A stretch of DNA of 64,000 nucleotides from an uncultured Erythrobacter sp. (GTDB lineage: Bacteria > Pseudomonadota > Alphaproteobacteria > Sphingomonadales > Sphingomonadaceae). Positions 7,796-57,655 of the stretch are shown here, one piece after another. Each line of letters opens with the position of its first letter. Within the stretch, counting starts at the first letter, position 1. A model generated the notes under the pieces. The model had not been told where the DNA came from. It saw only the letters and a list, made by a program, of their open reading frames with translations, and searched no databases. A program made the position numbers and the translations under genes. The stretch lies in NCBI GenBank assembly GCA_947503275.1, contig CANNCZ010000002.1, positions 1,198,733 through 1,262,732 on the forward strand, in the 5' to 3' direction.

Positions 7796-7805
7796 AGGCT
7801 TTGGG

Positions 7806-32701: not shown

Positions 32702-33634
32702 TTAATGGCCCTCGCCCGTGTGCTCTTCTTCGCTCGCCTCGGCGCGCGCCTGATCGGTCAACATTCTGAACTTCGTCCAAGTTGTCTCATTGCGGCGGGC
32801 ATCATCCTTTGGCGGCGCTTGTTCATAGATGGGATAATTCTCGCGGATTTCATCTTTCAAAACATCCGGCAGTTCTTCGAAGCCGCCGGGCAATTTGCGG
32901 CCCATGGCGTTAAAGACCATTTGGCCGGGGCGTCCCCCCATTTCCATCCATGGTGCCCAAGGCGAAATCCGGACCCAGCTGATCATCGGATAGGCTGTTG
33001 GCGTGCTGGAATCATACAGATCGCTCTTCAAAGCAGCGAAATCAAAAATCTCCATCGCGTGGTACATATTGCCGACATATTGCTGATACTCTCCCGCCAG
33101 CGGGTTGGGGTAGAACAGCGGGACTTCGAATGGCATGAAGACGTACGGTCCGGCCTCCGTCAGCGATGAAAGCGCGTAAGGCGTTCCGTCGGCACTGCGG
33201 GGAAAATTTGGCCGCCCGTTCACCGGATCATTGTGGATTTGCATAACATCGACCGTCTCGCCGGTGTAAGGGTTCTCCCAGCGATCCAAGACTTCGCCGG
33301 TTTCCGGATCCAGCATCAGCATGACCTCGCGGCTGATCAAACGCCAACCAGTTCCGCGTTCTGGATCAGTGACTTCGACGCAGCGGCGGATATTCATCCC
33401 TTCACCTTGGAACAGCAGCTTGTCCCGCACGCCGGGGCTGCGGCCGTAAATATTGCCGGACCAGTGATAGACGGCGGGCTCATCCTCAGACACACCGCAT
33501 TGCAGACGTTTGGAAATTTCTAGAGCGTCTTCGGGGTTAGTGGGGTCCAACATTTGCGCCGACGAAGGCGCTGCCAAAACGGTGGAACCTGCCAACAGGC
33601 TTGCTGCTAAGAAAAGCGTTTTCATCAATTTCAT
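32702..33634 (-). CDS. Exported DUF1838 family protein
   Basis: 310 residues from ATG 33634, after CTTGGGAGGGAACAG. A signal peptide (to about residue 24, TVLAAPSSAQ) precedes a DUF1838 domain recognised from VYHWSGNIYGRSPG, GEGMNIRRCV, LISREVMLMLDPETGEVL and NPYTGETVDVMQIHNDPVN. DUF1838 proteins have no known activity but recur in sphingomonad catabolic clusters. The start lies 31 bases from operator O5. Confidence 0.85.
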   Translation of the reverse strand: MKLMKTLFLAASLLAGSTVLAAPSSAQMLDPTNPEDALEISKRLQCGVSEDEPAVYHWSGNIYGRSPGVRDKLLFQGEGMNIRRCVEVTDPERGTGWRLISREVMLMLDPETGEVLDRWENPYTGETVDVMQIHNDPVNGRPNFPRSADGTPYALSSLTEAGPYVFMPFEVPLFYPNPLAGEYQQYVGNMYHAMEIFDFAALKSDLYDSSTPTAYPMISWVRISPWAPWMEMGGRPGQMVFNAMGRKLPGGFEELPDVLKDEIRENYPIYEQAPPKDDARRNETTWTKFRMLTDQARAEASEEEHTGEGH

Positions 33635-33664
33635 CTGTTCCCTCCCAAGGGGTATGCATGTAGT

Positions 33665-33682
33665 GATTTGTCCGGACAAATT
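33665..33682. promoter_or_regulatory. Operator O5
   Basis: GATTTGTCCGGACAAATT matches the palindrome at 17 of 18 positions and lies just before the DUF1838 start, between the divergent operons at 33634 (minus) and 33777 (plus). Confidence 0.78.
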
Positions 33683-33703: not shown

Positions 33704-33721
33704 TATTTGTCCGGACAAATT
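33704..33721. promoter_or_regulatory. Operator O6, inside a probable promoter
   Basis: TATTTGTCCGGACAAATT matches at 17 of 18 positions, 39 bases centre-to-centre from O5. A TTGACT at 33695-33700 is a good -35 box for the citE-like gene, which would place O6 in the -35 to -10 spacer, a typical repressor position. Confidence 0.75.
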
Positions 33722-33776: not shown

Positions 33777-34601
33777 GTGTTTGCCGCAGCCAGCCTTCTG
33801 TTCGTACCGGGCTCGCGTCCCGACCGCTTTGCTAAGGCGAAGGCGGGTGGGGCTGGCTTGACGATCATTGATCTCGAAGATGCGGTTGCGGCCGGCGACA
33901 AGGGGAGCGCGCGCGAAGCAGCCTTGGAGCAGGTGTCGTCGGATGGTGAGGGTTGGGCGGTGCGGATCAATGCGGTGACCACCGCTGCGGGTGTGCGCGA
34001 TCTGGCGGTGCTGACTGAGTGCGTGGATCTTCCTGGCACTCTGCTTGTGCCAATGGTGGAAGCGGAGGCTGAAATTGCGGTTGTAGTGGGCGCGTTGGAG
34101 GGGCGGTGTCCTGCTCTGATCCCGCTGATCGAAACGCCTAAGGGGCTGAGAAATACGCTTGCTATCGCAGCGCATGATGCGGTGACCGCGTTAATGTTTG
34201 GCGGAGGCGATTTTTCGGGAGAGCTGGGTGTGGAGTTGGCGTGGGAGCCTTTGCTGGGCGCGCGCCAACAGTTCATTCTCGCCTGCGCAGAGGCGCGCAA
34301 GCCTGCGATTGATGTGCCTTTTGTTGTACTGGATGATGAGGCTGGGCTTGCGAAGGAATGCGCACAAGGACTCGCGCTTGGCTTTGCCGCAAAGGCTGCG
34401 ATCCACCCGCGGCAAGTGCCCACGATCGATGCCGCTTTCGCACCAAGTGAGGGCGAGGTGGCTGAGGCGCGCGAAGCGCTTGAGGCTTATGAAGCAGGCG
34501 GCGAGCGGGCGATCCGTTTCAAAGGGCGCATGTTAGAAGCGCCCTTCATCAAGAAATACCGCGCGGTTATTGCGCGGGCTGAGGAGCAATCGAATGCGTG
34601 A
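33777..34601 (+). CDS. CitE-like (HpcH/HpaI family) CoA-ester lyase
   Basis: 274 residues from GTG 33777; there is no ATG option. It contains LLFVPGSRPDRFAKA (7-21), TIIDLEDAVAAGDK, the catalytic-region PLIETPKGL (about 121-129) and GGGDFSGELG (about 143-152), all typical of citrate lyase beta, malyl-CoA and citramalyl-CoA lyases. Paired with the downstream MaoC hydratase and CaiB transferases, an activity on (S)-citramalyl-CoA or a related beta-hydroxyacyl-CoA is likely, giving acetyl-CoA or propionyl-CoA plus a 2-oxoacid. This substrate is inferred, not shown. Confidence 0.9.
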   Translation: MFAAASLLFVPGSRPDRFAKAKAGGAGLTIIDLEDAVAAGDKGSAREAALEQVSSDGEGWAVRINAVTTAAGVRDLAVLTECVDLPGTLLVPMVEAEAEIAVVVGALEGRCPALIPLIETPKGLRNTLAIAAHDAVTALMFGGGDFSGELGVELAWEPLLGARQQFILACAEARKPAIDVPFVVLDDEAGLAKECAQGLALGFAAKAAIHPRQVPTIDAAFAPSEGEVAEAREALEAYEAGGERAIRFKGRMLEAPFIKKYRAVIARAEEQSNA

Positions 34602-35103
34602 TGGTGTAATCGAAGTCTCACCGGGCCGGTTTAGAGAGGTTCAGGGGCGCTATTTCGAAGATTTTGTCGAAGGGCATGTTTACGAACATCGCCCCGGACG
34701 CACGATTACCGACGCCGACAATGTGTGGTTCACTTTGCTGACCATGAACACGCATCCTGCGCATTTCGATTATGAGCTGTCAAAAGACACCGAATTCGGC
34801 AAACCGCTTGTCGTCAGCCCGTTTACGATTGCGCTGATGACCGGGATGAGCGTGTCTGACACCAGCGGTAAAGCAATCGCCAATCTTGGCTGGGACGAAG
34901 TGCGCATGACTAAGCCGTTATTCGTCGGCGACACGCTGTATTGCGAAAGCGAAGTGATCGAAAAGCGCGAGAGCAAAAGCCGCCCTGAGCAAGGCATCGT
35001 GACCTGCAAAACCATCGCTAAAAATCAACACGGCGATATCGTGAGCCATTACAAACGTTCCGTTCTCGTCTGGAAACGCGGCTTTGGCGGGCTCGACGAC
35101 TAA
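34594..35103 (+). CDS. MaoC-like dehydratase/hydratase (itaconyl/mesaconyl-CoA hydratase type)
   Basis: 169 residues from ATG 34594, eight bases inside the end of the lyase gene. The hotdog-fold hydratase motif is visible: TITDADNVWFTLLTMNTHPAHFD, with Asp42 and His57 as the expected catalytic pair. The long NTHPAHFD form, rather than short GDxNPxH, is seen in mesaconyl-CoA and itaconyl-CoA hydratases. It should add water to an unsaturated dicarboxylyl-CoA, producing the substrate of the CitE-like lyase. Confidence 0.88.
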   Translation: MRDGVIEVSPGRFREVQGRYFEDFVEGHVYEHRPGRTITDADNVWFTLLTMNTHPAHFDYELSKDTEFGKPLVVSPFTIALMTGMSVSDTSGKAIANLGWDEVRMTKPLFVGDTLYCESEVIEKRESKSRPEQGIVTCKTIAKNQHGDIVSHYKRSVLVWKRGFGGLDD

Positions 35104-35145
35104 AGCACATTTTCATTTTTGAGGTCCCTCTTTAAGGAATCAAGT

Positions 35146-36333
35146 ATGGCAACCGCCGTAAATTTCGACAATCAAATCCGCACCATTGACCCCGATGAAG
35201 AGCGCGCCTTCATGGACGCGATTGATCGCTGGCTTGAGCGGGAAGTTATTCCCGTCATTCAGCATCATGACCATGGCGATATCTGGCCGGAAAAGCTGGT
35301 CCACCAGATGGCCGAAATGGGCTTGTTCGGGGCGACGATTGGTCAGGAGTATGGCGGTCTAGGACTGCCTGCGACCACCTATGCCAAGATCGTGATGCGC
35401 ATTTCCAGTTATTGGATGGCGATCACCGGTATCTTCAATTCGCACCTGATAATGGCCGCAGCGGTTGAGCGGTTCGGCACGCCTCAGCAAAAGGCCAAGT
35501 GGCTGCCGAAACTGGCGAGCGGCGAATTGCGCGGCGGGCTTGCGTTGACGGAGCCGAATGCGGGGACCGACCTTCAGGCCATCCGCACGGTCGCGCGCAA
35601 GGATGAGAACGGCAATTACATCCTTAATGGCACCAAGACTTGGATTTCGAACGCGCTGAACGGTGATTGTTTTGCGATGTTGGTGAAGACCGATCCGGAC
35701 GCTGATCCGCGTTATAAGGGGATGAGTCTGTTTATCGCGGATAAGCGCGAAGGGCTGTCGGCCGGCAAAAAGTTTGAGAAGTTGGGTTATAAGGCGATCG
35801 ATAGCGCCGAATTGATCATGGACAATTACCACGTGCCCGCTGACCAACTGATCGGCGGGATTGAGGGGGAAGGGTTTTTCCAAGCCACCGGCGGCCTTGA
35901 ATTGGGCCGTATCAATGTGGCGGCGCGCGGCGTCGGCCTAGCCGAAGGGAGCCTGCGCCTCGCCACCGAATATGCGCAGCAGCGCGAGACGATGGGCAAG
36001 CCTATTGCGCAGCATCAGGCGATCCAGTTGAAGATCGGCGAAATGGTCACGCGGGCGCGGGCTGCGCGATTGCTGACACTTGATGCTTCCGAAGCGTATG
36101 ACCGCGGCCAGCGCTGCGACAAAGAGGCGGGCATTGCGAAGTTTTTCGCATCAGAGGCCGCCGTCGAAAACAGCCAAGAGGCCATGCGCGTGTTCGGCGG
36201 CTATTCCTATTCCAAGGAATACGACATTGAGCGGTATTACCGCGACAGTATGTTGATGTGTATCGGTGAGGGGACCAACGAAATGCAACGGATTATCATT
36301 GCCAAGCAGCACCTCAAAGAAAACCAGATTTGA
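35146..36333 (+). CDS. Acyl-CoA dehydrogenase
   Basis: 395 residues from ATG 35146. The three-domain fold shows LALTEPNAGTDLQAIRT (FAD-contacting, about 136-152), TKTWISNALNGD, and the C-terminal CIGEGTNEMQRI with the expected catalytic Glu. Relatives include glutaryl-CoA, isobutyryl-CoA and short branched-chain dehydrogenases. It desaturates an acyl-CoA that the MaoC protein then hydrates. Transfers electrons to ETF, not encoded here. Confidence 0.93.
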   Translation: MATAVNFDNQIRTIDPDEERAFMDAIDRWLEREVIPVIQHHDHGDIWPEKLVHQMAEMGLFGATIGQEYGGLGLPATTYAKIVMRISSYWMAITGIFNSHLIMAAAVERFGTPQQKAKWLPKLASGELRGGLALTEPNAGTDLQAIRTVARKDENGNYILNGTKTWISNALNGDCFAMLVKTDPDADPRYKGMSLFIADKREGLSAGKKFEKLGYKAIDSAELIMDNYHVPADQLIGGIEGEGFFQATGGLELGRINVAARGVGLAEGSLRLATEYAQQRETMGKPIAQHQAIQLKIGEMVTRARAARLLTLDASEAYDRGQRCDKEAGIAKFFASEAAVENSQEAMRVFGGYSYSKEYDIERYYRDSMLMCIGEGTNEMQRIIIAKQHLKENQI

Positions 36334-36346
36334 GCGGGGCGGCCCA

Positions 36347-37579
36347 GTGATAAATCCGGTCGCGCATCCGCCCCTCAAAGGTTTTCGGATTATCAGCGCC
36401 GAGCAATACGGCGCCGGGCCGTATGGCACGATGTTTCTGGCGCAGATGGGCGCAGAGGTCATAAAGATCGAACCGCCGGGTAAATCCGCACCCGATGGCA
36501 CACGTCACGGCGCAGGGGACACGGCGCGCGCGGTCGGCCCGCATTTCTTGAGGCCAGGTGAAAGCACGTACTTTCAGAGCTTTAACCTCAATAAGCGCTC
36601 AATCACTCTCGACCTTCATTCTGAACAAGGGCAGGAGATCCTGCGCAAATTGGCGGGGACATGTGATGTTGTCGCCAACAATATGCGAGGCGATTTGCCG
36701 GCGCGATTGGGGCTGGATTACGCATCGCTGAAATCGACAAATCCGGCTATCGTTTGTGCGCATTTGTCCGCCTATGGCCGCGACAATGCCCGCGCAAAGT
36801 GGCCCGGCTATGACTATCTGATGCAGGCCGAGGCGGGATACTGCACCGTTACCGGCGAACCTGGCGGCGATCCACAACGGATGGGCCTGTCGATGGTCGA
36901 TTTCATCACCGGCACGATTTTTTGCATCGGCTTGCTGGGCGCACTGGTTGATGCGCAACGCAGCGGCAAGGGTCGTGATGTCGACACCGATTTGCTATCC
37001 GCGGCCATCCATCAGACAAGCTATCCAGCGCTATGGTATATGAACCATCAAGACGAAACAGCACGCACCCCGCGCAGCGCGCATCCAACCGCCACGCCCA
37101 GCCAGATGTTCAAGGCGCAAGATGGCTGGATGTTTGTTATGTGTCAGTTGCCCAAATTCTGGGACATTTTGATAAACCGGATGGGTCGTGAAGACTTGAA
37201 AACTGATCCACGCTTTGCCTCCAATGCCGACCGGTTGGCAAACCGTGATGATCTGACGAAAATTCTTGATGATGAATTTGCTCAGCAACCGATGGCCTAT
37301 TGGCAGGATTTGCTTGCCGGGCATGTGCCTGTCGCGCCGGTTTACACGCTAAGCGACGCTTTGGATAATCCGTGGCTTAAGGAAATTGGCATGCGCGACA
37401 GTGTCTCGCACCCTGACGACCCGGACCTTCAGGTGCTGGCCAATCCGCTGAAATTTGATGGTCAGCGCTTGCCCAATCGTGCGGCCCCCTTGCTAGGTGA
37501 AGACAATAACGCGATCCTTGGGGATCTTGGTTATGATGATGATGCCATCGCGAACCTGCGCAAATCCGGCGTGATCTGA
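36347..37579 (+). CDS. CaiB/BaiF CoA-transferase, copy A
   Basis: 410 residues from GTG 36347, 13 bases after the dehydrogenase stop and preceded by GAGCGGGGCGG; the upstream in-frame ATG overlaps the dehydrogenase too far. Family signs are LAQMGAEVIKIEPPG (about 31-45), the catalytic Asp156 in GYDYLMQAEAG, and RSGKGRDVDTDLLSAA. It would move CoA onto or off a carboxylic acid, supplying the acyl-CoA for the dehydrogenase and hydratase. The adjacent copy B is diverged, so the two probably use different acids or act as separate entry points. Confidence 0.92.
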   Translation: MINPVAHPPLKGFRIISAEQYGAGPYGTMFLAQMGAEVIKIEPPGKSAPDGTRHGAGDTARAVGPHFLRPGESTYFQSFNLNKRSITLDLHSEQGQEILRKLAGTCDVVANNMRGDLPARLGLDYASLKSTNPAIVCAHLSAYGRDNARAKWPGYDYLMQAEAGYCTVTGEPGGDPQRMGLSMVDFITGTIFCIGLLGALVDAQRSGKGRDVDTDLLSAAIHQTSYPALWYMNHQDETARTPRSAHPTATPSQMFKAQDGWMFVMCQLPKFWDILINRMGREDLKTDPRFASNADRLANRDDLTKILDDEFAQQPMAYWQDLLAGHVPVAPVYTLSDALDNPWLKEIGMRDSVSHPDDPDLQVLANPLKFDGQRLPNRAAPLLGEDNNAILGDLGYDDDAIANLRKSGVI

Positions 37580-37584
37580 CCGCA

Positions 37585-38685
37585 ATGGGTAGACTTTCGG
37601 GTATCAAGGTTGTTGATCTGTCGCAGTTCCTGCCGGGGCCGATGATGACGGTCATGATGGCGGATCAGGGCGCAGAGGTGATCAAGATTGAGCCCGCGCA
37701 GGGTGATCCCGCGCGTGATCAGGCTCCTTTTGATAGGTACGGCGATGCGACCCATTCGGTCTGGTTCGCCAATCTTAATCGCGGCAAATCAAGCACAGTG
37801 CTCGATCTCAAAAGCGAAGCTGGCAAGGCCTCTCTACGAGCATTGATCGCCGATGCCGATGTGTTCGTCGAAGGGTTTCGGCCCGGTGTGATGGCGCGGC
37901 TGGGATTTGACTACGACGCGGTCAAAGCGATCAAGCCAGACATCGTCTATTGCTCGATATCCGCCTTTGGACAGGACGGCACGCTGGCGCATCATCCTGC
38001 GCATGATATGGCGGTTCAGGCGCTTGCGGGCTTTCTAGCCGTCAATGATGGCGCCGATGGCGCTCCGGTTGTACCGGGTGCGCCGAGCGCCGATCTTGCC
38101 GCGGGTTTAACTGCGCTATCGGCGGTGCTGATGGCACTCGTGGGGCGGGACCGCAATGGCGAGGGCGCGTATATTGATTGCGCCATGTTCGATAGTTTGT
38201 TGCCATGGTGCGCCCATATTGCCGGAAGCGCGATAGCGGGCGGGGCAAGCCCCGTATCGTCGGCCCAGCGGTCGTTGGGCGGCGCGGCGTTCTATCAGGT
38301 TTACGAAACGCAGGATGGGTTGCATGTTGCGCTGGGCGGCCGCGAGCTCAAATTCGCGCGCAATCTTCTGATCGCATTGCAGCGCACAGACCTTCTGCCT
38401 CTCGCCGACGTTCCTGCGGGAGAGCAAGGCGAATTGATCGATTTCCTGCGTGCGACTTTTGCTAGCAAAACGCGCGAAGAATGGGTTCAATGGTTCGCTG
38501 ATAAAGACGTGGCGTTCTCGCCTGTGCTCAATTTCCGCGAAGCGCTGGACGAACCGCATATTGCCGAACGCGGCCTATTGGTTGAGGCCGATGGAGGGGG
38601 CAAGCATATCGCCCCAGCTATTCGGTTCGCAGGCGATGAGTGGGCTCCGGGCATCGTACCGGTAAAGAATAGCAAACCCGGATGA
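37585..38685 (+). CDS. CaiB/BaiF CoA-transferase or racemase, copy B
   Basis: 366 residues, five bases after copy A. Pattern MADQGAEVIKIEPAQGDPARD, EGFRPGVMARLGFDY and catalytic Asp141 (HDMAVQALAGF) identify the class III transferase fold; the shorter length and RDRNGEGAYIDCAMFDSLL also fit alpha-methylacyl-CoA racemases. A racemase would make sense where branched CoA esters must have one configuration for dehydrogenation. It is the last gene before the convergent regulator, nine bases away. Confidence 0.9.
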   Translation: MGRLSGIKVVDLSQFLPGPMMTVMMADQGAEVIKIEPAQGDPARDQAPFDRYGDATHSVWFANLNRGKSSTVLDLKSEAGKASLRALIADADVFVEGFRPGVMARLGFDYDAVKAIKPDIVYCSISAFGQDGTLAHHPAHDMAVQALAGFLAVNDGADGAPVVPGAPSADLAAGLTALSAVLMALVGRDRNGEGAYIDCAMFDSLLPWCAHIAGSAIAGGASPVSSAQRSLGGAAFYQVYETQDGLHVALGGRELKFARNLLIALQRTDLLPLADVPAGEQGELIDFLRATFASKTREEWVQWFADKDVAFSPVLNFREALDEPHIAERGLLVEADGGGKHIAPAIRFAGDEWAPGIVPVKNSKPG

Positions 38686-38693
38686 TGCCGCGC

Positions 38694-39488
38694 CTAACCC
38701 TCGACGTCGATATGCATCGCATAGGCGAAGCGGTCACCGGGGTGGTGGCTGACCGAGATTTCAAAAATCTGGCCATCGGGATTGAAGTAACACCGCAGGA
38801 TGCGCAGCACCGGCGACCCTTCCTCGATCTCCAGAGCACTGGCGGTGCGTTCATTTGCGGGGATCGCCTGGATGTCCTGCGTAACTTTGCCGATGCGGAC
38901 CCCCGCCAGTCTTTCAATTTGGCTAAACAAAGTGCCCGCAGCAAGATCCAGCTTAGCGACGGCATCGCCGAGCAATTCATGGAAATAGGCATCGGTGACG
39001 GCGATCGGCAGCGCCTTATCGGATTGGCGGCGAACGCCGCGAAAACAGGTCCATGCGCCGTTGGTGGAATCGCCGATTTGTTCGGCCACCTTATCTGGCA
39101 ACGCACCGCATTTGGTCGGCTCATATGTGACTTCGCTGTTGCGCGCATATTGCAGCAGCTCGCCGACATTGGACAAAGGTTGATGCAGCGCCCCGCCGCG
39201 CGCAGCCGGGGGTTGAACTGTGGTGCCCGACCCGCGCCTGCGTTCGATCAATCCCTCGGATTCGAGCCGGCGCAGCGCCTCCCGCACAGTGAAGCGGCTG
39301 ACGTCGAACCGATCGCACAGCGTCGTCTCGGTCGGAAATTGCTTTCCGTTGGCAAATTCACCAGCAAGGATCGCCTCGCGCATTTCGCCCGCCAATTGAA
39401 CGTAACGCGGAACACGCGGCGGTTTCTTGGCACTACCTTTGGTGTTGGCTTTGGTGCTTTTGGTATTTTTGGTGGCCTTCGTCGCCAA
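38694..39488 (-). CDS. GntR-family regulator, HutC/UTRA subfamily; candidate master regulator
   Basis: 264 residues. After a Lys/Thr-rich tail (1-25) comes a GntR winged helix (about 28-95: GKQFPTETTLCDRFDVSRFT, RREALRRLESEGL-type segment, ERRRGSGTTV) and a UTRA ligand-binding domain (about 110-255) ending with FEISVSHHPGDRFAY, a hallmark of this fold. HutC-type proteins repress catabolic operons and release DNA when a pathway compound binds. Its gene lies within the cluster, and the only repeated palindromes in the cluster, AATTTGTCCGGACAAATT, have the TTGT-N4-ACAA shape of HutC sites. It has no strong copy at its own promoter. Confidence 0.93.
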   Translation of the reverse strand: MATKATKNTKSTKANTKGSAKKPPRVPRYVQLAGEMREAILAGEFANGKQFPTETTLCDRFDVSRFTVREALRRLESEGLIERRRGSGTTVQPPAARGGALHQPLSNVGELLQYARNSEVTYEPTKCGALPDKVAEQIGDSTNGAWTCFRGVRRQSDKALPIAVTDAYFHELLGDAVAKLDLAAGTLFSQIERLAGVRIGKVTQDIQAIPANERTASALEIEEGSPVLRILRCYFNPDGQIFEISVSHHPGDRFAYAMHIDVEG

Positions 39489-39529
39489 TGCCTACTCCAT
39501 AGAAATGCAAACATGCAGGGTCGCGCCAT

Positions 39530-40756
39530 ATGAGCGGTGCATTGCTTACCGACTTTGTCCAGACTTTAGCGCGTCCGATGGGGAAAAGCGAGCGCGCTCG
39601 CGCGCGCCTGCACCTGCTCGATTGGATGGCCTGCATTGCCGGTGCGCGTGGAACAAAAGCGGGAGCGGTAGGCACAGCGATTTCGCCAAACGGATGGGAG
39701 CGCGCCACCTATCTTGGCAATGTGTTGGAAATGGATGATGTCCACCGCACGTCGCTGCTTCATCCGGGCCCCGTGGTCTGGCCTGCTGCGATGAGTTGCG
39801 CTGACGCTGACATGGATAGTCGGCTCGATGCGGCGGTGCGCGGTTATGAGGCGATGATTGCGATAGGTTCGGCCTTCGATGCGCATCATTATGCGCATTG
39901 GCATCCCACCGCTACGATGGGCGTGTTCGGGTCTTGCGCGGCGTATGGGTCATTGTTGGGATTTGATCCCGAGAAGTACGCCAATGCTCTGGGCAATGCC
40001 GGTTCTGTTGCGGGCGGCCTGTGGCATATGCGGCATGACGATGTGCTGACGAAACAATGGCACATTTTTCACGCCGTTCGAACGGGGCGCGATGCGGCAT
40101 GGCATATGCAGCATGGTGCGACAGGCCCGCAGGCAGTGCTGGAAGGGCCACAGGGCATTTTCGAAGCGATGACGCGCGATCCGGGAGAGGTAGCGTCTGG
40201 AAGCGCGGGATGGCTTATCGAAGGCGTAAGTTTTAAGCCCTTTGCCGCTTGCCGTCATGCGCACCCCGCCATTGATGCCGCTTTGGAATTGCGCAAGGCC
40301 GACAAGCTGAAAGCGCCCTTTGTGGTTGAAACATTCCAAGACGCGCTGACATTCTGCGACCGCCCTGACCCGAAGACTGAACTCGAGGCGAAATTCTCGC
40401 TCCAACACGCCGTTGCTGTGGTCGCCGATGGGCGCAATGCAGAACCGGAGGATTTCAGCGAGGCATCCATCGCGGCGCTAGGCGAATTAAGATCACAGGT
40501 TTCAGTGGTCCATGATCCCGAGTTTACTAGCCGTTATCCCGCTCATTTTGGCGCGCGAGTGAACGGATTTGAACTCATCGATACGCTCGGCGATCCAGAA
40601 CGACCAATTGGCGAAGAGCAGATCATCGCAAAAATGCACAGTCTGGCGCAGTGGGGCGATCTGCCTGCGATTGAGGCGGATCGCGCGGTGAAGTTGGCAC
40701 TGGAAAGCGATGACGTGGGCGGCGTCGATGCAATGTTGGAGGAATGGACCCGGTGA
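39530..40756 (+). CDS. MmgE/PrpD family protein, copy 1
   Basis: 408 residues. The family's all-helical domain shows HLLDWMACIAGARGTKAG, the active-site region NVLEMDDVHRTSLLHPG (about 63-79), and a second domain with KPFAACRHAHPAIDAALEL. The MmgE/PrpD family holds 2-methylcitrate dehydratase, cis-aconitate decarboxylase and iminodisuccinate epimerase, all acting on polycarboxylates. It begins 41 bases from the divergent regulator gene and opens a ten-gene operon. The substrate could be a branched tricarboxylate or unsaturated dicarboxylate; I cannot choose. Confidence 0.9.
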   Translation: MSGALLTDFVQTLARPMGKSERARARLHLLDWMACIAGARGTKAGAVGTAISPNGWERATYLGNVLEMDDVHRTSLLHPGPVVWPAAMSCADADMDSRLDAAVRGYEAMIAIGSAFDAHHYAHWHPTATMGVFGSCAAYGSLLGFDPEKYANALGNAGSVAGGLWHMRHDDVLTKQWHIFHAVRTGRDAAWHMQHGATGPQAVLEGPQGIFEAMTRDPGEVASGSAGWLIEGVSFKPFAACRHAHPAIDAALELRKADKLKAPFVVETFQDALTFCDRPDPKTELEAKFSLQHAVAVVADGRNAEPEDFSEASIAALGELRSQVSVVHDPEFTSRYPAHFGARVNGFELIDTLGDPERPIGEEQIIAKMHSLAQWGDLPAIEADRAVKLALESDDVGGVDAMLEEWTR

Positions 40757-42051
40757 ACGCCGCACAAGCCATTATCGATTTCGCCGCGCGCGAGCATGCT
40801 TTACCCCAAAGCGTGCAAGATGATGCTCTGCGCTTGCTTGGTGACACTCTGGCCGGAGGTGCGGCAGGCGCGCAGTCGGCTGAGGCTGCGAAGGTTTTGG
40901 TTTCTATTAGTCACGCGAACGGCGCGCATTGCCGCCTGCTGTCCGGAGGCACAGCTTCCAAAGGTGACGCCGCGTTCTTCAATGGTTTCGCGGTCCATTG
41001 CCTTGAATGGGATGCAGTGCATGAAGGGGCCGTGGTCCATGCGCTTTCGGTGGTGACCGCGGCGTTGCTAGCACAGTCGGATGCAAAAGGTGGGAGCGAT
41101 CCGGAGGCTTTCCTCACTGCGCTTGCAGTGGGTGTTGATATCGCCAGCGGGCTTGGCATTGCGGCGACGGGGCCAATGAGATTTTTTCGCCCCGCAACCG
41201 CCGGAATAATCGGCGCCGCGCTCGCCAGCGCGAGGCTCGCTGGGCTGCCGCGAGACCGTTTCGCCGACGTGATGGGGCTTGCCTATTCCTTCGCCTCCGG
41301 GACGATGCAGGCCCATGTCGAGGCGTCGATTGCGCTGCCGTTGCAAATCGCGAATGCGGCGCGCGCGGCTGTGATGGCGGTCGATTTGGCCGAGGCGGGA
41401 ATGGACGGACCGCATGATGTGCTGGACGGGCCATTTGGGTACGGTGCCTTGATCGAGCCGCTTGATATGGCGCGCTACACCCATGACTTGGGCAAGGTTT
41501 GGCGCATTAGCGAGGTGGCCATTAAGCCCTTCCCCTCGGGCCGTGCGAGCCATGGGGCCTTGGGTGCGCTTGCGCAATTATACGGCGAAGGCTTGCGCCT
41601 GAAAGACGTCGCAAAAGTGGAATTGTTCGCGCCGCCTTTGATCGAACGTCTGGTTGGGCGGCCTTATAGGGCAGATATGACGGCCGCATATGCGCGGTTG
41701 TGCCTACCTGTGCTCGCCCCATTGATGCTGCGTGACGGTGTTATCGACCCGGCCTTGTTCGACGGTGATGCACTGCATTCGCCCGGCCTAAAGCAGCTTG
41801 CGGTCAACGTTTCGGTGACGCTTGATGGAAACCCGGATGGCAATGCGATGGCCCCGCAAAGGCTCGCCGTGACCACCCACAAAGGGGACGTAATCGAGCG
41901 CATCATCAACGCCAATCTGGGCAGCACTCAAAACCCGATGAGCGCGGGCCAAGCGCAAGCCAAGTATGACCTGTGTCGCAGGCTGGCAGGCAAGGCCGCT
42001 GCGCAGCAGATTTTCGATAATCCTCTCTCCTATGCAGTGGACCCGGCATGA
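40753..42051 (+). CDS. MmgE/PrpD family protein, copy 2
   Basis: 432 residues from GTG 40753, which overlaps the previous stop by four bases and lies ten bases after GGAGG; an ATG at 40744 is possible but has the ribosome site touching it. Family features: ALRLLGDTLAGGAAGAQS, FNGFAVHCLEWDAVHEG (active region), and IKPFPSGRASHGALGAL. Copy 2 differs in the active loop (LEWDAVHEGAVVHA rather than LEMDDVHRTSLLHP). Tandem PrpD proteins may form a heteromer or act on cis and trans isomers in turn. Confidence 0.88.
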   Translation: MNAAQAIIDFAAREHALPQSVQDDALRLLGDTLAGGAAGAQSAEAAKVLVSISHANGAHCRLLSGGTASKGDAAFFNGFAVHCLEWDAVHEGAVVHALSVVTAALLAQSDAKGGSDPEAFLTALAVGVDIASGLGIAATGPMRFFRPATAGIIGAALASARLAGLPRDRFADVMGLAYSFASGTMQAHVEASIALPLQIANAARAAVMAVDLAEAGMDGPHDVLDGPFGYGALIEPLDMARYTHDLGKVWRISEVAIKPFPSGRASHGALGALAQLYGEGLRLKDVAKVELFAPPLIERLVGRPYRADMTAAYARLCLPVLAPLMLRDGVIDPALFDGDALHSPGLKQLAVNVSVTLDGNPDGNAMAPQRLAVTTHKGDVIERIINANLGSTQNPMSAGQAQAKYDLCRRLAGKAAAQQIFDNPLSYAVDPA

Positions 42052-43415
42052 CATATCCGACCTATTTCGAAGCGCTCGATCATCAACAGATGCTGAAGGA
42101 TTACCCGATCGGGGACGCGTTCACCGCGCGCTATGCCAGCATGAGCCGAGATGAGCTGTATTCGATCCAGAATGCGCAATTTCAACGGCTGATGATACGC
42201 GGGTGGCAGGTGCCATTCTATCGCCGCCTGTGGGGCGCCCAAGGGATTGAGCCGGGCGATATTGGCGGCCTCGAAGATATTTCTAAGCTGCCGGTTTATG
42301 ATAAAACCGACCTGATGGCTTCAATCGCGGAGTACCCGCCCTATGGCGATTTCCACGGCATGGATAATCCAGCGACCCGCCCGCCAACGATTTTTCATAC
42401 GACCAGCGGCACCACTGGCAAGCCGCAAACATTGATGTTTGGGCCAAAGGGGCGCGAAGTTGGCAATCTGCTCGTTGGCCGGATGTATCGCTGGATGGGT
42501 TTGTCACCCGAAGATGTGGTTCATTCGATCTATGGTCACGGGATGATCAATGGCGGGCATTACATTCGCGAAGCGGTGACGCATTTCACCAACAGTGTGT
42601 TCCTATCGGCGGGCACGGGGATCGAAACTCGCAGCGTCAATCAAGTGCGGTTGATGGCCGATTTCGGCGTGACCGCGATTGTGGGATTCGTCGATTATGT
42701 CCGCAAACTTGCTGGCACCGCTGAAGCCGAAGAATTGTTCGACAAAATCAATATCCGCATGATCATCGGCCATCTCGGCACAGAAGACCGCGCCAGCACG
42801 GAGGCAGCATGGCACGGGGCAAAGGCGTATGATTGGTACGGTGTCGGCGACACCGGAACCATCGCGGGCGAGGGGCCAGAGCGTGACGGAATGTATGTTT
42901 GGGAAGATGCGCAATATCTCGAATTACTGGGCGTCGATACCGGTGCGCCTGTGGCGAAGGGCGAAACGGGCGATATGGTGGTCACCTGTCTCTACAAAGA
43001 CGATATTGCCCCCTGCATCCGTTTCAACACGCATGACATCACTCATGAATTGGACGGCCGCGGAGAGATTGTGTTCAAACGCATCGCGGGCTTCAGGGGG
43101 CGCAGTGACAACATGGTCAAGCTGCGCGGGATCAATGTATTCCCGCACGCCATCGGTGCGATCATTGAGAACCGCAGCGATTTGACCGGCGAATATGTCT
43201 GCCACCTTCGCCGCGACTATGCGCAAAAGGATCATATGACAGTAACCTTGGAAAGCCGTGGCGGGACTGACCGTGCAGCGCTTGCTGAGACATTGAAGCA
43301 AGGGCTCGGTGTTGAGGTTGAGGTCGTTCTTGTCGATTCAGGCGGAACCGCCAAAGCAACCGAGATCGACACGCGTCAAAAGCCGCTGCGTTTGGTTGAT
43401 GAGCGGGGCGTATGA
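42048..43415 (+). CDS. PaaK-like phenylacetate-CoA ligase family protein
   Basis: 455 residues, four-base overlap with the previous gene. The adenylation P-loop TTSGTTGKPQ is at 118-127, YGVGDTGTIAGEG is the A5-like motif (about 262-274), and GRSDNMVKLRGINVFP is the hinge and C-terminal motif. Such enzymes activate aryl or other carboxylic acids with ATP and CoA. It offers an ATP-driven route to a CoA ester alongside the CaiB transferases. The family's substrate range is broad, and an aromatic acid is only the default guess. Confidence 0.9.
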   Translation: MTYPTYFEALDHQQMLKDYPIGDAFTARYASMSRDELYSIQNAQFQRLMIRGWQVPFYRRLWGAQGIEPGDIGGLEDISKLPVYDKTDLMASIAEYPPYGDFHGMDNPATRPPTIFHTTSGTTGKPQTLMFGPKGREVGNLLVGRMYRWMGLSPEDVVHSIYGHGMINGGHYIREAVTHFTNSVFLSAGTGIETRSVNQVRLMADFGVTAIVGFVDYVRKLAGTAEAEELFDKINIRMIIGHLGTEDRASTEAAWHGAKAYDWYGVGDTGTIAGEGPERDGMYVWEDAQYLELLGVDTGAPVAKGETGDMVVTCLYKDDIAPCIRFNTHDITHELDGRGEIVFKRIAGFRGRSDNMVKLRGINVFPHAIGAIIENRSDLTGEYVCHLRRDYAQKDHMTVTLESRGGTDRAALAETLKQGLGVEVEVVLVDSGGTAKATEIDTRQKPLRLVDERGV

Positions 43416-43422
43416 CCGCGCG

Positions 43423-44577
43423 ATGATTGATCCATATAACGCCTTTTCTCACCGCGCCGATGATGTTGGGACATGTCCGGATGGCCCTCTTTCAGGGCTG
43501 AGCATCGGCGTGAAGGCGAACATTGCGGTCAAAGGCATGCCGCACCACGCGGGTCTCGCGGCATGGATAGGCCGGATCGCGGCACAGGATGCTACGACGG
43601 TTGCCGCGTTGCGCGCTGCAGGCGCGATGATTGCTGGTACGCTTCATATGGAAGAAGGGGCGCTTGGTGCGAAGACCGACAATCCGCATTTCGGGCCGGT
43701 CCAAAACCCCCACCGTGCAGGCTATTCTCCAGGCGGCTCATCAGGGGGGAGCGGCGCGGCGGTGGCCGCCGGTCTGGTCGACGCAGCACTGGGCACCGAT
43801 ACAATGGGCTCGGTACGCATCCCGGCATCGCATTGCGGTGTTTACGGGTTCAAACCGGCGACTGACCGGGTGAGCCAAGATGGCTTGGAAGCGGCGGATT
43901 TGTCGCTGGACGCTATCGGGCCTTTGGCGCGCGACCTAGATACGTTGGAGCGAGTGGCGCGCGTCATGTCACGATTTGGCGAAGGTGGCATAGCTGGTGA
44001 TGGGGCCTCAGTTACGAAGCACGGCGTTGCGGTTCACCCCGAGGTTGCATCTGTGTTCGATAGAACCGCCGCCGCGCTGGCCACCTCTTTGGCGCAGGTC
44101 TCGCTGAGCCATGAACAAAGCCGCATTCGCTTTGCCGGCTTCATTGGCGTCTCGCGCGCAATGTCGGCGCATTTGCAAGGTGTGCCCATGTCCGATCATC
44201 TTGCAAAATTGCTGACCTATGGCCCCCGCCGTGCGGATTCCGATTGGGCCGAGGATCAGCGTATCCTGAGCCAGACCGCCGATGAAGTGTGCCGCGCGAT
44301 TGACGTGTATGGCTTTATGATCATGCCGACGGTCCCCAATCCCCCTTTTTCACACAGTGATCCCGAACCCGCCGCGCAAGCGGACTTCACCTGTCTTGCC
44401 AATATCGCCGGGCTGCCCGCGCTCAGCATCCCTGCGGGATGGACGGCGGATGGTTTGCCGATTGGCGTTCAGATCATCGGTCAAAGCGGCGCGGAGGCAG
44501 GGTTGTTCGCTCTTGCCCGCCAACTTGATGACAAATTGAGCGCCTATCGCGCGCCACCAAAATCAGAAGGAGCCTGA
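43423..44577 (+). CDS. Amidase-signature hydrolase
   Basis: 384 residues from ATG 43423; an in-frame ATG at 43399 lies inside the ligase gene. The Ser-cisSer-Lys triad is complete: Lys31 (GVKANIAVKG), Ser106 (GGSSGGSGAA) and nucleophile Ser130 (DTMGSVRIP). It is somewhat short for the family (usually 430-500), lacking part of the C-terminal region. It hydrolyses an amide to acid and ammonia, and is the second cytosolic amide hydrolase in the regulon. Confidence 0.92.
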   Translation: MIDPYNAFSHRADDVGTCPDGPLSGLSIGVKANIAVKGMPHHAGLAAWIGRIAAQDATTVAALRAAGAMIAGTLHMEEGALGAKTDNPHFGPVQNPHRAGYSPGGSSGGSGAAVAAGLVDAALGTDTMGSVRIPASHCGVYGFKPATDRVSQDGLEAADLSLDAIGPLARDLDTLERVARVMSRFGEGGIAGDGASVTKHGVAVHPEVASVFDRTAAALATSLAQVSLSHEQSRIRFAGFIGVSRAMSAHLQGVPMSDHLAKLLTYGPRRADSDWAEDQRILSQTADEVCRAIDVYGFMIMPTVPNPPFSHSDPEPAAQADFTCLANIAGLPALSIPAGWTADGLPIGVQIIGQSGAEAGLFALARQLDDKLSAYRAPPKSEGA

Positions 44578-44901: not shown

Positions 44902-45702
44902 GTGCCGAAATTTGAAGGCAAGACCATCGTTGTCACCGGATCGGCCAAGCAGAAAGGTCTGGGTCAGGGCATTCTTCAAGCCTTTGCGGATGAGGGCGCC
45001 AATTGCGTAATCTCTGACCTTGTCATTGATGATGAGGCCGAAGAAGTGGCCGCCGAATTGCGCGGGCGCGGCGCGAAAGTCTCCGCGATTGCTTGTGACG
45101 TTTCGGATGCAGCGCAATGCAGCGCGCTGATTGCGCAGGCATCCGATGCATTTGGCGCGGTCGATATCTTCGTCAACAATGCCGGAATTGGTTTTAAGAT
45201 GAAGCCGCTGCTTGAGGTCAACCCGGTTGATGAGTGGGATCAAGTGATCGCGGTCAATCTGTCAGGCGCGTTCTATTGCACGCAGGCCGCCGCGCGCGCG
45301 ATGGTGGATCGCGGGCAAGGGGGGCGCATTATCAACATCGCCTCACAAGCCGCAAAAACCGGATTTCCGCATTTGCCAGCCTATGTGTCGTCCAAACACG
45401 GTATGGTCGGCCTGACCCGAGCAAGCGCAGTTGAGCTTGGTTCACATGGCATCACTGTCAATGCGATCTGTCCAAACCACGTAACCACGGGCCTGGGCGC
45501 GCAGCAGAATGCCTATTTCTCAAAGCTGCTCGGCTTTGAAACGGTCGAGGCTTACTTGGAAAATATGAGTGCTAAGAACCCAATGGGTCGCCCCGGCCTT
45601 CCTTCCGACACAGCCGCAGCCTGTCTTTGGTTGGCGAGTGATGAGGCATTTTATGTGACCGGAGAAGCGCTCAACGTGTCCGGCGGTGAGGAGATGCATT
45701 GA
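44902..45702 (+). CDS. Short-chain dehydrogenase/reductase
   Basis: 266 residues from GTG 44902, with GAGGAGCACC upstream. It has the cofactor loop VTGSAKQKGLGQG (11-23), VNNAGIG, catalytic Ser148, Tyr161 and Lys165 (AYVSSKHG). A classical SDR that interconverts an alcohol and a ketone. Its stop overlaps the start of the deacetylase-fold gene (TGATG). Confidence 0.93.
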   Translation: MPKFEGKTIVVTGSAKQKGLGQGILQAFADEGANCVISDLVIDDEAEEVAAELRGRGAKVSAIACDVSDAAQCSALIAQASDAFGAVDIFVNNAGIGFKMKPLLEVNPVDEWDQVIAVNLSGAFYCTQAAARAMVDRGQGGRIINIASQAAKTGFPHLPAYVSSKHGMVGLTRASAVELGSHGITVNAICPNHVTTGLGAQQNAYFSKLLGFETVEAYLENMSAKNPMGRPGLPSDTAAACLWLASDEAFYVTGEALNVSGGEEMH

Positions 45703-46574
45703 TGGCCTTGAAAGAAGAACGCATCGACTGGCCCAACGGCGCGAAAATGGCTCTGAGTGTCGTCGTCAATGTCGAAGAAGGCAGCGAGATGACTATTGCC
45801 CGGGGCGATCGCGGGATGGAGCCAGTCGATGAGCTGGGCGTCTTCGTAAAATCTAAAATTCGCAATTACTCGAATGAATCCAACTACCTTTACGGTATCA
45901 AAGCTGGCGCGCCGCGGATCATCAAATTGCTGAAGCGGTATGACATCATGGCCAGCTGGACCGTCGCTGCGCTTAGCTTGGAAAACCATCCAGAGATCGC
46001 TGAGGCGATTGTGGAACTGGGCCATGAGCCGGTCAGCCACGGCTGGCGCTGGGTGCATCAGTTTAAAATGGACGAGGAGCAGGAGCGCGAGTTCATTCGC
46101 AAAGCGGTGTCCAGCATCGAAGAAACGTGCGGGGTTCGGCCTTATGGCTGGCTTTCGCGCTACCTCTTGACCGACAACACCCGCCGCCTTTTGAGCGAAG
46201 AGGGTTTCACCTATCACATGGATGATTATTCCGGCGACGTGCCTTTTTGGGATCGTGACACGGTGCCCAAAAAACCGATGTGCATTGTGCCGTATCAGCT
46301 CGACAATAATGATATGAAGATGTGGACCGATCCGGCGCTCACCCCGCACCAGTGGTTGGACTATGCAAAAGCCAATTTCGATCAAGTCTATGCCGAGGGC
46401 GAGGAGGGCAATCCCAAGATGATGAGTTTGGGGCTGCACCTGCGCATTATCGGGCGGCCAGGCCGCATTTGGGCGTTGGAGGAGTTTTTCAAACATGTCC
46501 GTGCGCATGAAAGCGTGTGGGTCACCACCCGCAAAGCCATCGCGGATCACTTTATGGAAGCGCACCCGGCATGA
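45702..46574 (+). CDS. PuuE-like polysaccharide deacetylase-fold protein (allantoinase-like), copy 3
   Basis: 290 residues from ATG 45702. This copy is the most PuuE-like of the three: VVVNVEEGSEMTIARGD (about 21-37) and SHGWRWVHQF (about 109-118), both close to metal-independent allantoinase. It also has GWLSRYLLTDNTRRLL. Hydrolysis of a cyclic amide is the natural inference. No other purine-degradation gene (uricase, allantoicase) is present, so allantoin itself is unlikely. Confidence 0.88.
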   Translation: MALKEERIDWPNGAKMALSVVVNVEEGSEMTIARGDRGMEPVDELGVFVKSKIRNYSNESNYLYGIKAGAPRIIKLLKRYDIMASWTVAALSLENHPEIAEAIVELGHEPVSHGWRWVHQFKMDEEQEREFIRKAVSSIEETCGVRPYGWLSRYLLTDNTRRLLSEEGFTYHMDDYSGDVPFWDRDTVPKKPMCIVPYQLDNNDMKMWTDPALTPHQWLDYAKANFDQVYAEGEEGNPKMMSLGLHLRIIGRPGRIWALEEFFKHVRAHESVWVTTRKAIADHFMEAHPA

Positions 46575-54252: not shown

Positions 54253-54972
54253 ATGACATCCCCTCTGGAGGCTCGTTCGCTTTCTCTGGTTCGTGAGGGA
54301 AACGCCGTGTTGGATGGCGTCTCCTTCGCTGTGCAGCAAGGCGAGATATTCGCCCTGCTGGGCGGAAACGGTGCGGGCAAATCAAGCACACTGCTCACGT
54401 TTCTGGGCTTCCTCGAACCTTCAGGCGGAGAGGTTTTAGTCAACGGCGCCAGCGTCAGCAGCGATGTAGCTGCTGCGCGAAATGCGATTGCTTACTTGCC
54501 GGAGGCCGCGTCGCTTTATGGCCATATGAACGCCTATGAAAACCTCGACTATTTCCTCGATCTGGCCGGTAAGTCGGCGGGGCGGTCTGAGATAGATGCA
54601 GCCCTTGAACGAGTGGCCTTGCCACCAGAGGCACGCACGCGTCGTTTGCACTCTTACTCAAAGGGTATGCGACAAAAGACGGCAATTGCATTGGCTCTAC
54701 TTCGAGAGACGCCAATCCTGTTGCTGGACGAGCCGACTTCTGGCCTCGATCCGGTGGCGATTGATGAATTTCATGATCTGGTCAAAGCGCTCGCGACAGG
54801 TGGGCAGACCATTCTGATGGTGACGCATGATGTTTATGGCGCGTGTCAGGTTGCTGATCGGGTTGGTCTTATTCGCGACGGCAAACTCGTCGGGAGCTTT
54901 GCGGCGGAAGATGGCGAGCGGATCGACACCGAAACCGTTCACGCCGCCTTTGCCGGGCGTGGGGTGGCATGA
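54253..54972 (+). CDS. ABC transporter ATP-binding protein
   Basis: 239 residues. Walker A GGNGAGKSS (37-45), signature YSKGMRQK (about 138-145), Walker B ILLLDEPTSGLDP and the switch His (VTHDVYG). It is of the type that pairs with ABC-2-like permeases and overlaps the first permease gene by four bases. Confidence 0.94.
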   Translation: MTSPLEARSLSLVREGNAVLDGVSFAVQQGEIFALLGGNGAGKSSTLLTFLGFLEPSGGEVLVNGASVSSDVAAARNAIAYLPEAASLYGHMNAYENLDYFLDLAGKSAGRSEIDAALERVALPPEARTRRLHSYSKGMRQKTAIALALLRETPILLLDEPTSGLDPVAIDEFHDLVKALATGGQTILMVTHDVYGACQVADRVGLIRDGKLVGSFAAEDGERIDTETVHAAFAGRGVA

Positions 54973-56405: not shown

Positions 56406-57655
56406 TGGCGAAATCTCTCTCCCGCGAAATCCGATTTTTGAGCAAAGATAAGGGTGCCGTCTTTTGGTTGGCACTCGCCTTTACCCTATCGGTAATTGCG
56501 GTCAGCTTTGGGGTGTCCGAAGTCCGCGAGCAGCGCGAAACCATCGCGACCTTGTTGGAAGAGGATGCACTCGACCGGGCAAGCGCGCTCGAAGGGCATG
56601 AGGAATGGGGAAGTGCAGCTTACTACGCTTTCCATTTCACCTATGCGCCGCCCTCTGACTTTGCTTTTGCATCGATGGGCCAGCGCGATACCGCGCCGTG
56701 GAAGCACCGCGTGCGGATGCTCGCATTGGAAGGGCAAATTCACGAAGCGGATACCCGCAATGCGAATTTCGGGCTTGTAGGGCGGTTCGACTTTGCCTTT
56801 CTGGCTGCATCGGTCGCGCCGCTTCTTTTGATCCTGCTGCTTTACGACCTGCGCGCTTCTGAGCGCACTGCACGCAGACATGATCTTTTGGTGGCAACCG
56901 CAGGTGCATCATCGCGGCTTTGGCTGCCCCGTGCGATCGTTCGGGTCGGTGCGCTGGCCACTTTGTTGCTCGCGCCTTTGTGGGTGGCCTCAGCAATCGA
57001 AGGAACAGGCGCAGGAATGAGCTTGCAAGCGAGCGCCATTGTGATCGGTTCGCTGCTTGTCTGGTGGCTGATCGTTGAGCTGGTGAGCCGCATCAACGCC
57101 ACGCCTTCGGTTCTCCTGACCTCGCTCATCGGATTGTGGCTGGCTCTCGCTATCGTGGTGCCTGCGCTTTCGAAATTCGCAATTGAGGCGGCAAATCCGG
57201 TTCCCGATGGGGGCGAGATATTGCTGCTCCAGCGTGAAACGGTGAATGATGCGTGGGACTTGCCCAAAGAAGCGACGATGGAGCCGTTTGTCGCTGAACA
57301 TCCTGAATATGCCGCGCATGCGGTGATTGAGGAAACATGGGCGTGGAATTGGTACTATGCGTTTCAGCAGGTCGGCGATCAGGCCGCCGCGCCCCTCGTC
57401 CAGCAATATCGCGATGCGCGCGTTGAGCGGGATCGTCAGGCTCGGCTGGCCGCATTCATTTCACCAACCAGCTTTGTTGAACGTTCATTCGAAAAGCTGG
57501 CGGGCACGGATGCGCTTTCCATGATTGCCTATGAAGATGCGGTGCGCAATTTCCATGAGGAACTCCGTGCGTTTCATTATCCGTTGATGTTTCCAGAAGC
57601 GCCCTATGATGAGGCACTTCTGGAGGATCTGCCTGCTTATACTCCACCATCATAG
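56405..57655 (+). CDS. ABC-2-type permease, DUF3526-like, copy 2
   Basis: 416 residues. N-terminal helix (about 17-36), extended external loop with HEEWGSAAYYAFHFTYAPPSD, then membrane helices from about residue 130 (FLAASVAPLLLILLLYDLRASER). It is the heterodimeric partner of copy 1. The absence of a substrate-binding protein in the operon suggests export or a mechanical role in the periplasm rather than classical import. Confidence 0.85.
   Translation: MAKSLSREIRFLSKDKGAVFWLALAFTLSVIAVSFGVSEVREQRETIATLLEEDALDRASALEGHEEWGSAAYYAFHFTYAPPSDFAFASMGQRDTAPWKHRVRMLALEGQIHEADTRNANFGLVGRFDFAFLAASVAPLLLILLLYDLRASERTARRHDLLVATAGASSRLWLPRAIVRVGALATLLLAPLWVASAIEGTGAGMSLQASAIVIGSLLVWWLIVELVSRINATPSVLLTSLIGLWLALAIVVPALSKFAIEAANPVPDGGEILLLQRETVNDAWDLPKEATMEPFVAEHPEYAAHAVIEETWAWNWYYAFQQVGDQAAAPLVQQYRDARVERDRQARLAAFISPTSFVERSFEKLAGTDALSMIAYEDAVRNFHEELRAFHYPLMFPEAPYDEALLEDLPAYTPPS

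Follow-up and report, generated by a model that had tools for sequence, protein, structure and literature searches.

A citramalyl-CoA lyase-like operon with a transferase-type and a racemase-type CaiB protein in an uncultured Erythrobacter sp.

The 64,000 nucleotide stretch of an uncultured Erythrobacter sp. analysed here ("the window"; contig CANNCZ010000002.1 of assembly GCA_947503275.1, positions 1,198,733 to 1,262,732) carries at 33777-38685 five genes whose products resemble enzymes of itaconate and mesaconate degradation. Is this an itaconate operon, and if not, what might it degrade? The open reading frames (ORFs) named in a first-pass annotation of this DNA, for a CitE-like lyase, a MaoC hydratase with an NTHPAHFD motif, an acyl-CoA dehydrogenase and two CaiB proteins, are all present and co-directional; taking the likely starts, neighbouring genes are spaced -8 to +42 bases apart. 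The families named for the unit hold, and its end at 38685 does not; the module runs on through GntR, MmgE1, MmgE2, ligase, amidase and SDR genes to a PuuE-like hydrolase gene, as follows:

33777-34601, plus strand, CitE/RipC-type CoA-ester C-C lyase (RipC model 207.8 bits, cut-off 375)
34594-35103 (ATG 34594), plus strand, RipB-like MaoC (R)-hydratase with NTHPAHFD (RipB/Ich model 224 bits, cut-off 340)
35146-36333 (ATG 35146), plus strand, acyl-CoA dehydrogenase, putatively of the 2-substituted succinyl-CoA type (no equivalog cut-off reached)
36347-37579 (GTG 36347), plus strand, CaiB1, class III CoA-transferase type (succinate-glutarate CoA-transferase match, active-site residues)
37585-38685, plus strand, CaiB2, alpha-methylacyl-CoA-racemase type (His140/Asp170/Glu254)
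38694-39488, minus strand, HutC-like GntR regulator (HutC TIGR02018 87.9 bits, cut-off 220)
39530-40756, plus strand, MmgE/PrpD protein 1 (MmgE1), epimerase-like active site (residue alignment)
40744-42051, plus strand, MmgE/PrpD protein 2 (MmgE2), altered active site (residue alignment)
42048-43415, plus strand, PaaK-like acyl-CoA ligase (PaaK model 162 bits, cut-off 646)
43399-44577, plus strand, amidase-signature amidase (GatA/amidase models, GGSSGGSG motif)
44902-45702, plus strand, SDR dehydrogenase (domain match)
45699-46574, plus strand, PuuE-like NodB-fold hydrolase, candidate cyclic imide/amide hydrolase (PuuE allantoinase 3cl6 232 bits)

The plus-strand ORF at 38682-39533 was rejected as a gene and taken as the antisense of the GntR gene.

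Enzymes of the lyase operon

Judged from sequence, the assignment of the lyase and the MaoC protein to the RipC and RipB/Ich families is far from chance (208 and 224 bits, respectively). The closest solved chain to the lyase by sequence is Yersinia pestis RipC (3qll, 165 bits, versus 88 bits for a Pseudomonas aeruginosa acyl-CoA lyase, 9nzb), and its AlphaFold model (pLDDT 94) matches the folds of RipC and of citramalyl-CoA-bound Mycobacterium tuberculosis CitE. The MaoC protein has the NTHPxHFD motif that we take to define the itaconate-degradation hydratase, and seven of its eight positions do not vary across the 9 aligned rows. Both proteins miss the curated cut-offs of their families (NCBIfam NF038241 for RipB/Ich and NF038242 for RipC/Ccl). 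The positive control, P. caribensis RipB, reaches 356 bits with the RipB/Ich model; the RipC/Ccl cut-off is a strict one, because a lyase adjoining a RipB that passes scores only 290.5 bits with that model. Over a phylum-wide set of 398 genomes the RipB model matched in 16 at E <= 1e-40, one of them above the cut-off; these matches supplied the distant loci compared below.

The dehydrogenase lies in a fully supported clade with proteins from Azospirillum, Pseudosulfitobacter, Variovorax and Aminobacter clusters, and is 58-84% identical to the cluster-borne dehydrogenases of that clade. It is 30% identical to, and in a separate clade from, the Cupriavidus dehydrogenase that adjoins an MmgE gene and is, by that gene order, putatively Mcd; at this identity and in this clade, orthology to the (RS)-methylsuccinyl-C4-CoA dehydrogenase is not supported. 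The transferase, too, belongs to a clade separate from that of its putative Cupriavidus methylsuccinate counterpart. The published work on these routes (PMC12290011) describes a five-gene cluster for itaconate and methylsuccinate, two variants of which rely on enzymes that are nonhomologous or distantly homologous, and a route in the order CoA transfer, dehydrogenation, hydration and citramalyl-CoA lysis. The order of catalysts in the window matches that route; the core chemistry of the operon is likely to be CoA transfer, dehydrogenation, hydration and cleavage of the retro-Claisen type.

Like the Pseudomonas/Cupriavidus cluster (ich, mcd, msi, ict, ccl), the window has a class III CoA transferase, an acyl-CoA dehydrogenase, a hydratase, a citramalyl-CoA-type lyase and MmgE/PrpD proteins. 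It differs in its second CaiB and second MmgE, in the clade of its dehydrogenase, and in its hydratase, since the one beside the Cupriavidus dehydrogenase and MmgE has a FAS1-type domain and is not a RipB. On a C. metallidurans plasmid the dehydrogenase adjoins MmgE and this FAS1-type hydratase (C. campinensis has the same layout by sequence look-alike), and on a Paraburkholderia plasmid its direct neighbours are a FAS1-type hydratase and a CaiB gene, and a lyase gene is close by; by gene order this layout looks like the published methylsuccinate cluster. With Y. pestis ripABC the window shares the RipB and RipC branches and an adjacent lyase-hydratase pair, and differs in falling under both cut-offs, in the extra dehydrogenase, racemase, MmgE, ligase and amidase, and in its CoA transferase, a class III CaiB protein as against the acetyl-CoA hydrolase/transferase type that adjoins RipB in locus L130. 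Our comparisons thus place the window operon as a third combination, in which a hydratase and lyase like RipB and RipC are paired with a dehydrogenase and transferase of another lineage, because its dehydrogenase clade is separate and its lyase is nearest RipC.

The proposal that the operon mirrors the itaconate route therefore stands for the kinds of enzymes and falls for a specific itaconate or mesaconate operon: the cut-offs are missed, the dehydrogenase belongs elsewhere, C-N hydrolases are neighbours, and the scan of window ORFs, which covered TonB receptors and an MFS carrier, found no dicarboxylate transporter. A canonical itaconate operon was rejected on the curated cut-offs and the clade.

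For the residue counts below, 80 loci, chosen as the best of 559 that hold a hydratase relative and mostly close relatives, were pooled with same-genus and distant-genome loci. At least four genomes occur twice, and only rows with at least 80% coverage and at least 35-40% identity were used. The two CaiB proteins had been annotated as transferases, the second as a transferase or a racemase; they are unlike each other, and their active-site residues indicate one of each type, so "two transferases" was rejected. Their best models, both under curated cut-offs, are succinate-glutarate CoA-transferase (SUGCT; 215 bits) for CaiB1 and oxalate CoA-transferase (194 bits) for CaiB2. CaiB1 matches SUGCT 9br6 at 190 bits versus 74 bits for alpha-methylacyl-CoA racemase 1x74, and CaiB2 matches 1x74 at 146 bits. 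The catalytic residues of MCR listed in Table 3 of PMC10967716 are His126, Asp156 and Glu241. CaiB2 has all three, as His140, Asp170 and Glu254, and this triad is complete in 79 of 79 homologues; its His/Asp/Glu spacing (30/84, with 30/85 in MCR) and length (366 versus 360 amino acids) are also like those of M. tuberculosis MCR/FAR. The triad occurs in 0 of 83 CaiB1 homologues, all 83 of which have Tyr-Asp and lack the Glu. In a HMMER alignment the FAR racemase has the His, Asp and Glu, SUGCT and 10uh have Tyr for His and lack the Glu, and YfdE lacks the His. CaiB2 is probably a racemase, a claim that rests on residues and length because its total score puts it nearer to SUGCT (185 bits) than to the FAR racemase (150 bits).

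The tandem CaiB1 and CaiB2 genes could alternatively encode one heteromeric CoA transferase like BbsEF, with no racemase, and among the 9fn0 chains CaiB1 does favour chain B (111 versus 82 bits) and CaiB2 chain A (95 versus 70 bits); this is quite improbable given the CaiB2 triad, complete in 79 of 79, and the presence of CaiB1-like genes without CaiB2 in Azospirillum and in genome G379.

MmgE1 and MmgE2 are the only two MmgE/PrpD family matches of the genome. The residues that PMC12290011 gives for IDS epimerase and methylsuccinate isomerase are His85, Asp/Glu88, His99, Tyr145, His150, Lys198 and Lys266 (IDS-epimerase numbering). MmgE1 keeps six of these seven (Glu, His, Tyr, His, Lys and Lys) in 72 of 72 loci, the first His being replaced in all (by Asn in 68, Gly in 3 and Ser in 1). 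In MmgE2 four remain, and Tyr145, His150 and Lys198 are missing from 69 of 69 loci; Lys198 aligns with Leu, and the His150 column has Phe with an adjacent Arg.

Gene neighbourhoods in relatives

A lyase at least 64% identical is present in 9 of the 61 genomes searched, namely its own and eight of the same genus. Gene order and direction over ~18-48 kb of the window (mostly from 10.5 kb) are kept, with few losses or swaps, in 7 of 7 same-genus long contigs; in the eighth same-genus genome, G005, the contig that holds the operon is 6 kb long. Among the 80 loci, the recurring arrangement across Sphingomonadales and in Peristeroidobacter is lyase, MaoC, dehydrogenase, CaiB1, CaiB2, GntR (opposite strand), MmgE1, MmgE2, PaaK-like ligase and amidase. 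Five loci (L104, L113, L116, L120 and L123) keep only lyase, MaoC and dehydrogenase together, three (L124, L127 and L128) have no lyase match, L067 and L119 differ, and several have no GntR at the usual place (L080, L089, L110 and L121) or are cut by contig ends. The three loci with no matching lyase adjacent do have DUF1838, MaoC and dehydrogenase genes, and L124 and L127 also have two CaiB genes and a second dehydrogenase.

Genes for hydrolysis of C-N bonds repeatedly adjoin the module. A PuuE-like homologue (65-85% identity) is present in 24 of 27 genomes tested; in 22 of these 24 its distance downstream from MaoC is 10-12.4 kb. G379 has the order amidase, ligase, MmgE1, GntR, CaiB1, dehydrogenase, MaoC, lyase, MmgE2, PuuE, SDR, and G149 has two PuuE-like genes, an isochorismatase-type gene, PuuE, lyase, MaoC, dehydrogenase, CaiB1, CaiB2. 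Luminiphilus and Pseudohaliea (domains confirmed for Luminiphilus only) have hydantoinase A/B, isochorismatase-type and alpha/beta hydrolase genes before lyase, MaoC and dehydrogenase, with GntR, amidase and CaiB1 divergent. Tistrella has GntR, CoA transferase, MmgE, ligase and amidase, and its ligase beside MmgE and amidase is 58% identical to the PaaK-like ligase of the window. Other such neighbours are an amidase in Azospirillum, the 5-oxoprolinase PxpA in Deinococcus and HyuAB in Methylobacterium. The island around the operon itself has three PuuE-like NodB-fold proteins (10494-11384, 11333-12298 and 45699-46574), all under the allantoinase cut-off.

A common operator before two lyase operons

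The first-pass annotation also placed two lyase systems, one of the HMG-CoA-lyase type and one of the CitE type, in one regulon, and a common operator before both operons bears this out. The relevant features are:

9697-9712, operator ATTTGTCCGGACAAAT, before the hydrolase-LeuCD-HMG-lyase-CaiB operon and the PuuE-like gene at 10494
33666-33681, operator ATTTGTCCGGACAAAT, copy 1, in the DUF1838/lyase divergent promoter
33705-33720, operator ATTTGTCCGGACAAAT, copy 2, before the CitE operon
4879-5841, minus strand, HMG-CoA-lyase-type lyase (PRK05692 274 bits, cut-off 246)
5814-7795, minus strand, LeuD-like (5814-6434) and LeuC-like (6431-7795) hydratase, kept with the CitE operon in relatives

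The true palindrome was derived from k-mers common to intergenic regions; the first guess at an operator, TTGTCNNNNNGACAA, has fewer matches than expected by chance and was rejected. The exact 14-mer TTGTCCGGACAA has four sites in the whole 3.41 Mb genome, all in the island (reversed control, 0): window positions 9698, 33667 and 33706, and a site 1.6 kb left of the window (contig position 1197182) that precedes a second methyltransferase-like ORF. With at most three mismatches ATTTGTCCGGACAAAT occurs 7 times in the window versus 0.16 expected, and 0 of 100 shuffles reach 7. Its further copies, at 27772, 27814, 28607 and 50400, are near two TonB receptor genes, a gene for a conserved membrane protein and o50394.

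In relatives the 300 bases that precede the lyase contain the 12-mer (at most one mismatch) in 63 of the 73 loci having a lyase match; the ten without it are L067, L080, L087 (contig end), L089, L097, L104, L113, L116, L120 and L123. Every locus whose GntR is at least 45% identical (58 of 58) has the site, which is absent from 7 of the 11 long loci that lack a GntR of this kind (Fisher p 6e-7 for 63 loci of at least 15 kb, which are related and not corrected for kinship). In all, the 80 loci have 218 sites, versus 0-4 in mononucleotide shuffles. The GntR protein misses the HutC cut-off and was assigned to the wider GntR/HutC-like group.

The site at 9697 directly precedes the LeuC-LeuD-HMG-CoA lyase-CaiB operon, which is what puts two lyase systems in one regulon. 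That operon (3701-9694, minus strand) encodes an alpha/beta hydrolase, a small protein, LeuC-like, LeuD-like and HMG-CoA-lyase-type proteins and a CaiB, and would fit an alkyl-maleate hydratase and lyase branch. Its lyase exceeds the PRK05692 subfamily cut-off. A second LeuC, 49% identical, is encoded elsewhere in the genome, so the window LeuC/LeuD is taken as catabolic and not as the biosynthetic pair. The LeuC-like gene (62-78%) is present in 23 of 27 genomes, and in 17 of 24 tabulated it shares a contig with PuuE and lies no more than 60 kb from MaoC; the two branches travel together in relatives. It had been suggested that they treat two enantiomers or two fragments of one substrate. With a racemase-type CaiB2 in the CitE operon, a branch for the other enantiomer only is the less likely of these and two fragments the more likely.

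Divergent from the lyase operon, and kept beside it in many relatives, is a gene for an exported-looking DUF1838 protein (32702-33679). Its confidently predicted structure (pLDDT 86) is a beta-rich fold without a clear counterpart in the PDB; the top-ranked entry, a haemophore (TM 0.25, E 2.3e-3), was discounted. Small look-alike proteins are encoded at 7806-8468 and 13734-14195, the first with a sub-threshold DUF3598_N match (E 0.0023), and an ABC transporter and two DUF3526 membrane proteins at 54253-57655, between TonB receptors.

Proposed pathway and alternatives

The gene order, families, active-site residues, operator with its conservation and C-N hydrolase link are directly supported here. 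From them we infer every reaction and substrate class that follows. Our favoured reading, which is tentative, is that the operon serves as the arm for the carbon skeleton in a catabolic regulon under GntR control. The compound degraded would contain nitrogen, as a cyclic imide or amide that bears substituents or as a larger molecule that includes such a ring, and the origin of the carbon skeleton from a nitrogen ring is to be taken with the same reserve. A substituted succinate from a cyclic imide or amide is suggested because C-N hydrolases adjoin the module. The PuuE-like hydrolase would open the ring and the amidase remove the nitrogen, giving a 2- or 2,3-substituted succinate; MmgE1 may isomerise the free acid, CaiB1 would move CoA onto it from a donor such as succinyl-CoA, and CaiB2 would epimerise the carbon adjoining the thioester, making both diastereomers usable. 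The dehydrogenase would then form an alkyl-mesaconyl-CoA, MaoC would hydrate this to an alkyl-citramalyl-CoA, and the RipC-type lyase would cleave the latter, yielding an acyl-CoA and a 2-oxo acid, which for a methyl substituent would be pyruvate. Fungi that break down nicotinate are established to use a NodB-fold imidase and then an amide hydrolase (HxnM/HxnN, PMC9304392). The window resembles HxnM/HxnN and PuuE allantoinase in having a NodB-fold ring hydrolase and an amide hydrolase within one pathway; organism and product differ, and the window protein is under the allantoinase cut-off.

Several points weigh against this reading. MmgE2 has lost residues of the known mechanism and, like the PaaK-like ligase, has no role in the scheme, and a racemase is no help if the substituent is on the carbon far from the thioester, as in methylsuccinyl-C4-CoA. 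The PuuE-like protein at 45699-46574 misses the TIGR03212 allantoinase cut-off (255 versus 424.6 bits), and imidase activity, which cannot be read from sequence, is only a candidate role for the PuuE-like proteins. The link to C-N hydrolases is not obligatory, because the lyase/hydratase core or the hydratase occurs without C-N ring hydrolases in P. caribensis, Polaromonas, Thermus, Aminobacter, Rhodococcus, Rubrobacter and Pseudosulfitobacter; and of 15 annotated plasmid stretches with a MaoC relative (one unannotated stretch was left out) six have a clear cyclic-amide hydrolase or amidase, as a raw count.

Somewhat unlikely is a non-nitrogenous substrate, in which case the operon would handle longer or aryl-substituted, benzylsuccinate-like succinates or the alpha-methyl-branched side chains of a terpenoid, polyketide or lignin-type molecule, and the hydrolases would act on other bonds. 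The CaiB proteins match both subunits of benzylsuccinate CoA-transferase (9fn0), racemases of the CaiB2 type act on alpha-branched acyl-CoA (PMC10967716), and the island also holds FAD oxidases, VOC proteins, alpha/beta hydrolases and a crotonase; on the other side, the C-N ring hydrolases that repeatedly adjoin the module are unrelated to one another, and the amidase is kept in most Sphingomonadales copies. We consider unlikely a diverged itaconate/methylsuccinate (C5) operon with unrelated other neighbours, in which CaiB1 would make itaconyl- or methylsuccinyl-CoA and MaoC and the lyase would yield acetyl-CoA and pyruvate. The nearest solved lyase (RipC), the best MaoC model (RipB/Ich) and the five-gene layouts (CaiB, dehydrogenase, MmgE, MaoC and lyase) of Azospirillum and Pseudosulfitobacter all suit it, but both cut-offs are missed, most relatives retain PuuE, the amidase, the ligase and the racemase-type CaiB2 alongside, the operator connects TonB receptors and the LeuCD/HMG-lyase operon, and both MmgE proteins deviate from the methylsuccinate isomerase residues. 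Very doubtful is mineralisation by the regulon of dialkyl-maleimides and dialkyl-succinimides from tetrapyrroles (chlorophyll, bilins), the one point for it being that chlorophyll and heme oxidation yields maleimides and hematinic acid (PMC7318184); PuuE-like imidases and the amidase would give dialkyl-maleate for the LeuCD-like hydratase/CaiB/HMG-CoA-lyase branch and dialkyl-succinate for the racemase/dehydrogenase/MaoC/CitE branch, and the two lyases would, if this were true, serve two fragments of one molecule.

Searches of one literature collection on DUF1838, the operator sequence and the enzyme combinations found no published description of the regulon. Many sphingomonads appear to carry, as a fixed trait and governed by a single operator, an undescribed third lineage of the citramalyl-CoA-type route together with an HMG-CoA-lyase-type branch. 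The CaiB2 triad supplies a clear racemase signature for separating CaiB paralogues, and the operator and GntR regulator are a handle for finding the natural substrate. The operon broadens what MaoC/CitE/CaiB clusters annotated "itaconate degradation" may do.

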